From Pirellulaceae bacterium (GTDB taxonomy: Bacteria; Planctomycetota; Planctomycetia; Pirellulales; Pirellulaceae): a stretch of DNA of 64,000 bases. Numbering within the stretch: position 1 is the stretch's first letter; each line of letters starts with the position of its first letter. This document shows positions 34,641 to 39,813 of the stretch, one piece after another. Under the pieces are notes generated by a model. It was not told where the DNA came from. It did not search any database and was given only the letters and a program-made list of their open reading frames with translations. The translations under genes and the position numbers were made by a program. Location: assembly GCA_018402565.1 (NCBI GenBank), contig JAGYIQ010000004.1, forward strand, positions 1 through 64,000, in the 5' to 3' direction.

Positions 34641-34689
34641 GAGCGACGGATCCGTTCGCGCTCTGCGGGAAATCTGAGCGGAGCGTGAC

Positions 34690-35695
34690 AAACTCCCGCT
34701 GGCTTGCCCAGTCCCGACGCATCGGGATTAGGCTTCTCGCTAAATCGCCGCTAGGAGCGCGCAAACGAATCCCGCTGGCTTGCCCAGTCCCGACGCGTCG
34801 GGATTAGGTGTCTCGCTAAACACGTGTATCGCGACAAAATCCCGCTGGCTTGCCCAGTCCCGACGCGTCGGGATTAGGCTACTCGCTAAATCGCCGCTAG
34901 TAGCGCGCGATCGAATCCCGCTGGCTTGCCCAGTCCCGACGCGTCGGGATTAGGTTTCTCGCTAAAGCCGCTAGGAGCGCGCGATCGAAAATCCCGCTGG
35001 CTTGCCCAGCGGATCTTTAGGCTTCTCGCTAAATCGCGTGGAGCGCGGAGAAAATCCCGCTGGCTTGCCCAGCGGATCATTAGGCTTCTCGCTAAATCGC
35101 CGCTAGGAGCGCGCGATCGAATCCCGCTGGCTTGCCCAGCGGATCATTAGGCTTCTCGCTAAAGCCGCTAGGAGCGCGCGATCGAATCCCGCTGGCTTGC
35201 CCAGCGGATCTTTAGGTTTCTCGCTAAAGCCGCTAGGAGCGCGCGATCGAATCCCGCTGGCTTGCCCAGCGGATCTTTAGGCTTCTCGCCAGCAGCGTGG
35301 AGCAGAACGAATCCCGCTGGCTTGCCCAGCGGATCTTTGGGACTACCGCCAAAGCCGCTAGGAGCGCGATCGAATCCCGCTGGCTTGCCCAGCGGATCAT
35401 TAGGCTTCTCGCTAGAAGCGTGGAGCGCGAGAAAAAATCCCGCTGGCTTGCCCAGCGGATCTTTAGGTTTCTCGCTAGAAGCGTGGAGCGCGAAAGAAAA
35501 TCCCGCTGGCTTGCCCAGCGGATCATTAGGTTTCTCGCTAAAGCCGCTAGGAGCGCGCGATCGAATCCCGCTGGCTTGCCCAGCGGATCTTTAGGTTTCT
35601 CGCTAAAGCGTGGAGCGCGAGAAAAAATCCCGCTGGCTTGCCCAGCGGATCATTAGGCTTCTCGCTAGAAGGATCGTTAGGCTTCTCGCTTTGGA
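34690..35695 (+). repeat. Left arm: about 15 hairpin repeats of ~65 bp flanking the transposase
   Basis: Units (period 62-78 bp) carry CCCGCTGGCTTGCCCAG at about 34695, 34771, 34841, 34917, 34993, 35056, 35123, 35188, 35253, 35313, 35376, 35439, 35502, 35567 and 35629. The first four contain a TCCCGACGCGTCGGGA palindrome; the rest have CCGCTGGCTTGCCCAGCGG instead. Each continues TTAGGCTTCTCGCTAAA and a variable GCCGCTAGGAGCGCGCGATCG or GCGTGGAGCGCGAG tail. It ends 43 bp before the transposase start with TTAGGCTTCTCGCT. Pro/Gly/Ser-rich frames here are artefacts. Confidence 0.9.
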
Positions 35696-35737
35696 CCCCT
35701 ACTTGCGGTCCGTTCGACCGTTTTCGAAGATCTAGGC

Positions 35738-36604
35738 ATGAACATCCCCCCATTTTCCGCTGATGAACTTGCATTTGCATGGTGTAACCGGATTTATTTT
35801 GCGTTTCACACGCATCGACGAAAGCCGATCCAATGGCTTCAGCAACTCGATAACGAGACGCTTAAAGAGTTACTTGCTCCATACGGCATCCATCTGCTCG
35901 AATTTAATAGCACACAGATTGAAAGCCGAGCCCTGGTCAGCCTCTCCGTCACTGATTCCGCGTCATCGGCAGTCGGCAAGATAAAAGGTCGTCTCAGCAA
36001 GTGGATTTCGAATACCGCTGGTGGGTCGCCCGAAGAGAAGCATCAGTGGCTCGGCCGAGGTTACTTCGCAACCACAACCGGAAAATCAACTGCCGAAGAG
36101 GTTGCCGCTTATCTCGAACGCCAAGGCGAACATCACGGCTATGGTTCAGGCGCGCAATCGCCAGTGTACATCCGAACCTACGACCGCCACGATGCAGACG
36201 ACCGTCGGTTGGCAACGGATCATGCGGTGACTTGTTTACAGTATCATTTTGTACTGGCGACTGAGTGGCGACGAGGCGTATTTTCACAAGAGTCAGCAGC
36301 GATGGTGGCCGAACGCTGGCGAGCGATGCAGACTGAGATGAAAGTAGTCATTCGGAAGGTCTCGATTTTACCTGATCATGTTCATGTGGCAGTCGATTTG
36401 CACCCGACGGTTTTACCAGCGTCGGTGGCGGTCGCACTCATGAATGCTGCGCAAGAATTGATGATAGAGAAATTCGATATGGCATTGATTCGAGCTCGGG
36501 TGAAGCGGTTATGGCAGGCGAGTGCCTATGTGGGATCATTCGGCGAATTACGTTCGGCCTCGATTGCAAGCTATATCAAGCGCTGGGAATCCGACGAGGC
36601 ATAG
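35738..36604 (+). CDS. Double-domain IS200-like / REP-associated tyrosine transposase (RAYT)
   Basis: 288 residues made of two tandem Y1-transposase-like domains. Domain 2 (about 160-288) is canonical: YHFVLATEWRRGVFS, the HUH motif in LPDHVHVAVDL, LWQASAYVGSFG and the nucleophile region IASYIKRWES. Domain 1 (about 10-135) has the same layout, RIYFAFHTHRRKP, then QWLGRGYFATTTG and VAAYLERQGEHHG, but the HUH position reads ESRALVSLSV, so the metal-binding histidines are lost while a Tyr-bearing helix is kept. Y1 enzymes work as dimers with active sites shared between subunits, so this looks like a covalent asymmetric dimer. The gene lies between inverted repeat arms and its TAG stop is the first part of the right arm's first repeat. 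Confidence 0.8.
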   Translation: MNIPPFSADELAFAWCNRIYFAFHTHRRKPIQWLQQLDNETLKELLAPYGIHLLEFNSTQIESRALVSLSVTDSASSAVGKIKGRLSKWISNTAGGSPEEKHQWLGRGYFATTTGKSTAEEVAAYLERQGEHHGYGSGAQSPVYIRTYDRHDADDRRLATDHAVTCLQYHFVLATEWRRGVFSQESAAMVAERWRAMQTEMKVVIRKVSILPDHVHVAVDLHPTVLPASVAVALMNAAQELMIEKFDMALIRARVKRLWQASAYVGSFGELRSASIASYIKRWESDEA

Positions 36605-37590
36605 CGAGAAGCCTAATCCCGATGCGTCGGGACTGGGCAAGCCAGCGGGATTCGTTTGCGCGCTCCTAGCGGATTTAGCGAGAAGCCTAATCATCCGCTG
36701 GGCAAGCCAGCGGGATTCGTTTGCGCGCTCCGCTGAGATTTAGCGAGAAACCTAAAGATCCATCTAGCGGAAAGCCTAAAGATCCATCTAGCGGGAAGCC
36801 TAAAGATCCGCTGGGCAAGCCAGCGGGATTCGTTTGCGCGCTACTAGCGGATTTAGCGAGAAACCTAAAGATCCGCTGGGCAAGCCAGCGGGATTCGTTT
36901 GCGCGCTCCGCTGAGATTTAGCGAGAAACCTAAAGATCCGCTGGGCAAGCCAGCGGGATTCGTTGCACTAGCGGATTTAGCGCGAAACCTAAAGATCCAT
37001 CTAGCGGCAAGCCTAAAGATCCGCTGGGCAAGCCAGCGGGATTTTGTCGCGCTCCGCTGAGATTTAGCGGGAAGCCTAATGATCCGCTGGGCAAGCCAGC
37101 GGGATTTTGTCGCGCTCCGCTGAGATTTAGCGAGAAGCCTAATGATCCGCTGGGCAAGCCAGCGGGATTCGTTTGCGTCCCTAGCGGGATTTAGCGGGAA
37201 GCCTAACGATCCATCTAGCGGTAAGCCTAATGATCCGCTGGGCGCCAACGGATTTTATCGCGCCCCGCTGAGATTTAGGGAAACCTAATGATCCGCTGGG
37301 CAAGCCAAGCGGGATTTTGTCGCGCTCCCGCTGAGATTTGGCGAAGCCTAATGATCCGCTGGGCAAGCCAGCGGGATTTTCGCTCGCAGCTCCACGCTTT
37401 AGCGAAGCCAATGATCCATCCGGCGAAGCCTAAAGATCCGCTGGGCAAGCCAGCGGGATTTCGTTCGCGCTCCGCTGTTAGCAGAAACCTAAAGATCCTG
37501 CTGGGCAAACCAGCAGGATGTTCCGATTCGCGGCATCGCTGAGATTTAGCGAGAATCCTAATCCAGATGCGTCGGGACTGGGCAAAACAA
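36602..37590 (-). repeat. Right arm: about 14 hairpin repeats, inverted relative to the left arm
   Basis: The plus strand reads TAGCGAGAAGCCTAATCCCG onward, the reverse complement of left-arm units. GGGCAAGCCAGCGGG cores lie near 36635, 36699, 36813, 36878, 36943, 37025, 37089, 37152, 37360 and 37443, with degenerate ones near 37229, 37298, 37503 and 37575. Only the innermost unit and the outermost remnant carry the GATGCGTCGGGAC palindrome type. Short GATCCATCTAGCGG inserts occur at 36770, 36785, 37000, 37210 and 37420. Decay rises toward the outer end, which abuts the transaldolase gene region. Confidence 0.9.
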
Positions 37591-39149: not shown

Positions 39150-39813
39150 AGACGGGCGGTTGGTGCGGTGGCGTTAGCGCAGTGGATGGCGGTGTTAGGG
39201 GAGAACGGCGGCTAGCGGCTTGTCGCTCACTCCAGTGGATAGCGTTGTTAGGGGAGACCGGCGGCTAGCGCCTTGCCGCTCACTCCGGAGGATGGCGTTA
39301 GCGCAGTGGATGGCGTTGTTAGGGGAGAACGGCGGCTAGCGCGCTTGTCGCTCACTCCGGTGGATGGCGTTAGCGCAGTGGATGGCGGTGTTAGGGGAGA
39401 CCGGCGGCTAGCGCCTTGCCGCTCACTCCGGAGGATGGCGTTAGCGCAGTGGATGGCGGTGTTAGGGTAGACCGGCGGCTAGCGCCTTGCCGCTCACTCC
39501 GGAGGATGGCGTGTGCGCAGTGGATGGCGGTGTTAGGGTAGGACACGGCGGCTAGCGCCTTGCCGCTCACTCCGGAGGATGGCGTTAGCGCAGGGGATAG
39601 CGGTGTTAGGGGAGAACGGCGGCTGGCGCTCGCCGCTCACTCCGGAGGATGGCGTTAGCGCAGTAGATGGCGGTGTTAGGGTAGACCGGCGGCTAGCGCC
39701 TTGCCGCTCACTCCGCAGGATGGCGTTAGCGCAGTGGATGGCGGTGTTAGGGGAGACCGGCGGCTAGCGCCTTGCCGCTCACTCCAGTGGATGGCGTTAG
39801 CGCAGGGGATGGG
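39150..39813 (-). repeat. Cluster of about 10 ~65-70 bp repeats (family R3)
   Basis: The plus-strand unit is GGATGGCGTTAGCGCAGTGG, then ATGGCGGTGTTAGGGGAGAC, then CGGCGGCTAGCGCCTTGCCG and CTCACTCCGG. Read on the minus strand, its core is GTGAGCGGCAAGGCGCTAGC followed by CGCCGGT, the same as the R1 cluster at 3330-4565. Open frames in it are artefacts. Confidence 0.85.

Follow-up and report, generated by a model that had tools for sequence, protein, structure and literature searches.

A planctomycete Y1 transposase-like protein with two domains in one chain and a single complete set of catalytic residues

Introduction

The active sites of the dimeric IS608 transposase (TnpA, IS200/IS605 family) are built in trans. 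One chain supplies the metal ligands H64, H66 and D61, and the other a further ligand, Q131, together with the catalytic tyrosine, Y127 (PMC5934647). In IS608 DNA the guide occupies positions +16 to +19, with the hairpin behind it (PMC5934647). An earlier first-pass annotation of the DNA analysed here took Y1 enzymes to be obligate dimers, but this does not apply to all of them: E. coli TnpA_REP appears to be monomeric and can cleave and rejoin REPs (PMC6006769). None of the 12 subclasses distinguished in a survey of the TnpA_Y1 family has two Y1 domains; the survey required a complete HuH-Y core and excluded proteins that were longer than expected (PMC6006769), and that two-domain proteins have so far gone unnoticed would follow from these exclusions. 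Among planctomycetes, many tyrosine transposase genes with flanking repeats were reported in R. baltica by Di Nocera and colleagues, HUH and Tyr being conserved in all proteins aligned (PMC3733652). In a search of openly accessible papers we found no Y1 enzyme described as two-domain or single-chain.

Here we analyse such a gene in a stretch of 64,000 nucleotides (the window; positions 1 to 64,000 of contig JAGYIQ010000004.1, assembly GCA_018402565.1) from a Pirellulaceae bacterium with a genome of 7.18 Mb. By profile comparison its product carries two Y1 domains in one chain. The case bears on the evolutionary passage from single-strand transposases with two sites to resident enzymes with one, such as RAYTs.

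Results and discussion

The gene, its domains and the residues discussed below are located as follows.

35738..36604, + strand: gene of the two-domain Y1 protein, an open reading frame from ATG to TAG encoding 288 aa (Pfam Y1_Tnp 2.6e-26; NCBIfam IS200 2.7e-29)
35810..36124, + strand: domain 1 (aa 25-129), Y1 without HUH (Pfam; profile match to 2a6m; AlphaFold2 model)
35921..35929, + strand: E62-S63-R64, the former HUH position of domain 1, aligned with IS608 H64-x-H66; HUH absent in 50/50 homologues
36110..36124, + strand: YLERQ of domain 1, with Tyr125 as putative nucleophile (IS608 Y127) and Gln129 as putative third metal ligand (IS608 Q131); each present in 50/50
36227..36580, + strand: domain 2 (aa 164-281), Y1 with HUH (Pfam 60 bits on aa 151-288; PDB 2ec2 3.9e-13)
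36377..36385, + strand: HUH motif H214-V-H216 of domain 2; 49/50 homologues
36572..36586, + strand: YIKRW tyrosine helix of domain 2 (Tyr279; Trp283 replaces Gln); Tyr in 8/50, Gln in 0/50

The match of the whole protein to Pfam Y1_Tnp (PF01797) falls into two stretches. Scanned alone, aa 1-150 score 36.6 bits (E 5.5e-9) and aa 151-288 score 60 bits (E 3.1e-16) against a curated cut-off of 23 bits, placing each domain separately in the IS200/IS605 Y1 superfamily and bearing out the first-pass proposal of two Y1-transposase-like domains. The NCBIfam IS200 model gives 102 bits for the 288-residue protein, its cut-off being 55. The motifs on which that proposal was built are present in the reading frame: PDHVHVAV (H214, H216) and IASYIKRWE (Y279) in domain 2, and VAAYLERQ (Y125, Q129) in domain 1, where HUH is indeed gone and E62 and R64 occupy the H64 and H66 positions in the alignment with IS608. 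The detail that matters most had been overlooked in the first pass: domain 1 retains the metal-ligand glutamine at Tyr+4, and domain 2 has Trp in its place.

A profile made from ten domain-1 sequences matched solved IS200/IS605 transposases at full length, IS608 TnpA (2a6m) among them (E 8.8e-15). The alignment equates Y125 with Y127 and Q129 with Q131, and sets Glu62 and Arg64 against H64 and H66. An AlphaFold2 model of domain 1 (pLDDT 69.8, alignment of 51 sequences) shows the Y1 order of elements with the tyrosine on the last helix; its best 29 matches in the PDB are all IS200/IS605 TnpA, with E. coli RAYT next. The rows of this alignment were canonical Y1 proteins, which biases the model towards the Y1 fold, and we therefore take the model to be compatible with that fold and not as independent proof of it. 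Pfam, the profile comparison and the model all oppose the view that domain 1 is something other than a Y1 domain. In the full-length AlphaFold2 model (five sequences, mean pLDDT 47) only domain 2 was modelled well, and with domain 1 poorly formed no trans arrangement is visible; the domain-2 part matches IS200 transposases, RAYT appearing at rank thirty. We note that Asn236 of domain 2 (window 36443-36445) is invariant in 50/50 two-domain proteins, at a position that is a KG motif in canonical Y1 proteins and in domain 1.

Genome searches of the family, class and phylum yielded 50 distinct full-length two-domain homologues in Planctomycetota. Domain 1 has the tyrosine and the glutamine in 50/50 and HUH in 0/50; domain 2 has HUH in 49/50 (the remaining one reads HLP), glutamine in 0/50 and tyrosine in 8/50, the other 42 being without it. 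HUH, catalytic tyrosine and Tyr+4 glutamine are thus nowhere combined in one domain, being split between the two. The set to which the window belongs comprises ten of the proteins (identities of 46-81%, with a further four at 22-31%). The remaining forty (group B) have a shorter C-terminus, and most of them have wholly lost the domain-2 tyrosine helix. Tyr279 is kept in all six closest members (group A, window included). The second lost histidine of domain 1 is Arg or Lys in the window's set and mostly Gln in group B. At E <= 1e-30 the group B profile has matches in 34 of the 398 Planctomycetia genomes searched; among 392 genomes drawn from across the phylum it has matches in two outside Planctomycetia, besides the window's own.

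Both domains are under similar purifying selection. Between the window protein and its 81% identical homologue dN/dS is 0.12 for domain 1 and 0.11 for domain 2, and it lies at 0.11-0.16 in both domains for the informative intact pairs. Taken with the conservation in 50 homologues, these values indicate that the residue pattern is more than chance. The check proposed in the first pass was whether the loss of HUH in domain 1 and the tyrosines of the two domains are conserved among two-domain relatives; it came out positive in 50/50 for the loss of HUH and for the domain-1 tyrosine, and in 8/50 for the domain-2 tyrosine. A single origin of the fusion is compatible with the tree, in which all two-domain rows lie to the same side of one branch with support 74/31. 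Two-domain relatives were also sought in viral contigs, phages and plasmids, where the matches span one domain only. In two proteins of one genome (L016/L031, G072) the N-terminal half of domain 1 is near-canonical apart from HUH, L016 scoring 81.6 bits to Y1_Tnp; they are likely intermediates between an intact and a degenerate domain 1.

The complementary nature of the losses is also seen in half-domain comparisons. With no such split imposed, HMMER aligns several canonical single-domain TnpA proteins to the family profile in two pieces: their N-terminal half and its HUH go to profile positions 155-231, in domain 2, and their C-terminal half and its tyrosine to positions 65-131, in domain 1. 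Against a canonical profile, median scores over 43 proteins are -2 and 21 bits for the N- and C-terminal halves of domain 1, and 22 and 2 bits for those of domain 2. The residue pattern would call for an active site formed in trans from two Y1 domains, an arrangement for which the full-length model (pLDDT 47) is too poor a guide. The IS608 site is built in trans, and the family accordingly looks like a single-chain fusion of such a dimer, with one composite site. By sequence and conservation, the chain holds a single complete catalytic set: domain 2 contributes the HUH and domain 1 the Tyr and Gln, and these would meet in one site as they do in the IS608 dimer. If the inferred fold is correct, the fused protein would retain exactly one of the two IS608-type trans sites. 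The asymmetric, covalently joined Y1 pair with one complete set of catalytic residues, as put forward in the first pass, is thereby supported at the sequence level. Its corollary of one live and one dead site fits the single set, with a correction to the wiring: the live site most likely combines HUH from domain 2 with the tyrosine and glutamine that domain 1 has kept. Across the wider family the tyrosine of domain 2 is dispensable. The nickase or one-end role put forward in the first pass is hypothetical.

The gene lies between two palindromic repeat arrays.

34670..35700 (approximate), - strand: left palindromic repeat array, units of about 65-76 bp (63-76 bp over both arrays) read outward; 11 exact CCGCTGGCTTGCCCAGCGG cores on the + strand
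36602..37590, + strand: right array, the same repeats inverted and read outward; 9 exact CCGCTGGCTTGCCCAGCGG cores on the - strand
36602..36604, + strand: stop codon TAG of the gene, identical with the TAG tag of the first downstream repeat; repeat family D10 begins at 36602

The arms of the two inverted arrays are 91% complementary over 175 nt. Dinucleotide shuffles of the window yield 0.06 matches to the CCGCTGGCTTGCCCAGCGG core at three mismatches, and all 37 exact cores in the genome lie at two gene loci. Two other repeat families tested are also locus-private, one having three weak matches elsewhere; in the three families tested the repeats are thus essentially private to their locus, unlike dispersed REPs. 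Inverted repeats occur on both sides of the gene at 36 of 42 two-domain loci (threshold at least 33 bits; shuffles reach at most 32), against 0/36 other positions in the window and 3/11 single-domain Y1 loci. That the hairpin repeats belong to the two-domain gene is supported at the sequence level. A second subtype of the repeat, with the core CCGCTGGCTTGCCCAGTCCCGACGCGTCGGGATTAGG (34683-34966, 36602-36640 and 37547-37585), makes up the unit directly behind the gene and the units farthest out, as though it marked the ends of the element. A separate tandem array at 39180-39812, with about eight units of 71 bp (CAGTGGATGGCGGTGTTAGGGGAGACCGG...) that match at 92%, contains GTTAGGG and CGGCTAGCG motifs and is by inspection unrelated to the arrays flanking the transposase gene.

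Read outward from the gene, 77 of 113 units have a TAG 15-17 nt 5′ of the hairpin foot, and tagged hairpins point outward in 89 cases versus 30 inward. An outward TAG-hairpin passes the filter at 27 of 43 loci, with none at the other 16. In many genes, the window's included, the stop codon is the TAG of the first repeat. Of the 22 genes that end in TAG, 9 are followed by a stem of 6 bp or more whose foot lies 14-17 nt beyond the stop codon (1% of shuffles), compared with 1 of 21 genes with other stops. Stem sequences vary between loci. The folding energy of whole repeat units is no better than that of shuffles (z -1.1 to 0.7); what speaks for the hairpin is not energy but a perfect stem that recurs. 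Known RNA families were not found in the arrays. Given the IS608 guide position with the hairpin behind it, a cut at the TAG, which is about 16 nt away from the hairpin, would be similar in geometry. IS608-like pairing of guide and target in the repeats was considered and is unsupported. The four bases at the hairpin foot, where guides would lie, vary and the TAG does not; the TAG is therefore more likely to be read by the protein.

A second array-gene-array unit is found on contig C180 of the same genome, with a protein 95% identical over its remaining part. In this copy the start and first 69 codons have been deleted between two ACT triplets. The similarity of the two units stops where the arrays end, which indicates that the array-gene-array unit can be copied. 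The copies L005 and L006 are 98% identical. Further two-domain Y1 genes of the window's genome are located on C57, C1 (two), C160, C112 and C180; that on C57 is accompanied by repeats of a family private to it, and identity between the copies on C160 and C1 is 98%. Interrupted copies occur in G108, G010, G216 and G080. In four genes (L214 in G010, L215 in G216, L216 in G080 and L022 in G200) the frameshift or stop falls exactly at the interdomain linker, leaving separate domain-1 and domain-2 reading frames that overlap or abut; these represent decay, sequencing error or a natural two-chain version. In two genomes of the same genus the transaldolase neighbour is present at 68% identity, but the flanks are not shared and an empty insertion site could therefore not be made out.

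Proposed mechanism

We consider it probable that the protein arose when an IS200/IS605 (Y1) transposase dimer became a single chain by fusion, that complementary losses made this chain asymmetric, and that its one composite site processes its own flanking units. Domain 2 would contribute the metal-binding HUH, and domain 1 the nucleophile Tyr125 and the third metal ligand Gln129. The mirror site, which has neither the HUH (domain 1) nor the Gln (domain 2), should be dead. The substrate is probably a single strand of the flanking units, recognised by the enzyme through the TAG about 16 nt 5′ of a short hairpin. Linkage, orientation and the tag point to a cut at or near the TAG. Rejoining would allow units to be gained, lost and exchanged within the protein's own arrays, and the whole array-gene-array unit may occasionally be copied elsewhere. 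A single site would imply one covalent intermediate at a time; the apparently monomeric TnpA_REP demonstrates that such an enzyme can cleave and rejoin palindromes.

The arrangement could instead be restored to two sites if two fused chains paired, giving two composite sites and ordinary two-site IS200-type strand transfer; the architecture would then be altered and the chemistry not. Such pairing would suit IS200/IS605 transposition, which requires cutting at two ends, and the presence of the array-gene-array unit twice in the genome, like the near-identity of L005 and L006, shows that units move. Copies are few, however, and the two arrays have opposite orientations, whereas in an IS the LE and RE share a strand; TnpA_REP, also flanked by palindromes, acts on them as an apparent monomer. 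We regard pairing as unlikely. Catalysis in cis within domain 2 (HUH and Tyr279), as in a monomeric RAYT, would leave domain 1 as a structural or DNA-binding remnant. The retention of Tyr279 throughout group A makes a cis site possible in those six members, but for the protein family this reading is very improbable: the Gln at +4 is missing from every domain 2, the tyrosine has gone from 42 of 50 though HUH stays in 49, and it is Tyr125 and Gln129 that are invariant.

That the protein binds hairpins and no longer cuts them, serving as a repressor or array-capping protein, would be in keeping with the low copy numbers and with the asymmetric residue loss also seen in enzyme-derived regulators. 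Binding alone would not need the whole set of HUH, Tyr and Gln, yet the homologues keep it down to about 23% identity, and we give this reading scant credence. A random degenerate duplication or functionless pseudogene, the outcome that would have undone the first-pass idea, might be suspected from the truncated copy on C180 and the interrupted ones in G108, G010, G216 and G080. We reject it, its probability being negligible in view of the 50 conserved homologues and the low dN/dS of both domains in informative intact pairs.

For the composite single site, the two halves of an IS608 trans site sit in different domains of one chain, and point mutants would therefore suffice without mixing of subunits. 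Such mutants could tell which tyrosine acts and whether one site is enough for both cleavage and rejoining. The protein also offers a ready-made scaffold for a monovalent HUH enzyme.

Comparison with known systems

The protein belongs to the Y1 superfamily and falls outside both the RAYTs and the IS layout. With the IS200/IS605 TnpA proteins (IS608, ISDra2; class 1 of Quentin) it has the Y1 fold, HUH and Y---Q in common, and these transposases provide all its top structural matches. A trans site formed by two domains and recognition of hairpins would be expected by analogy, and the protein would then work like half an IS608 dimer. It differs in having two domains per chain with the catalytic residues split and only one site complete. 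The flanks differ likewise: inverted arrays stand where an IS would have a single LE and a single RE, an identical IS in high copy number is absent, and the hairpins, which in an IS have the same strand at both ends, are inverted between the sides. Within class 1, the YLERQGEHH of domain 1 fits the signature of subclass 1.2 (Y---Q--HH; PMC6006769), whose members, however, are single-domain (median 148 aa), possess HUH and were reported without REPs.

TnpA_REP/RAYT proteins and their REPtrons (class 2) resemble the present locus in that the gene is single-copy-like and is bordered by inverted palindromes bearing a GTAG-like tag; here inverted repeats flank the gene at 36 of 42 loci, and the tag is TAG. 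One active site per enzyme is probably a further likeness. The RAYT-type assignment of the first-pass annotation does not stand: the protein is IS200-like (102 bits), and scores 29.3 bits with NCBIfam NF047646 (REP_Tyr_transpos), the cut-off of which is 80. Its tyrosine motif is Y---Q (YLERQ; the other is YIKRW), and that of class 2 is Y---NP. We have therefore rejected membership of the RAYTs. REPtrons further have GTAG at the hairpin foot and repeats dispersed through the genome, whereas here the TAG lies about 16 nt from the hairpin and the repeats tested are not dispersed. The single-site state would have been reached here by fusion, and in RAYTs through a cis-active monomer.

Class 3 of Quentin (Planctomycetes, Acidobacteria, Proteobacteria) is similar in its planctomycete hosts, its atypical flanking hairpins and its position between IS and REPtron; it differs in being single-domain (178 aa), with NHVH and Y----Q and a 5′ foot of CnGA. 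On balance we favour the view that the two-domain proteins are an undescribed Y1 lineage, in which gene fusion, together with reciprocal losses, locked a two-site dimer into the form of an enzyme with one chain and one site, maintaining private inverted palindrome arrays whose tag doubles as a stop codon. It would represent a second route, independent of the RAYTs, from IS transposase to resident repeat-processing enzyme.
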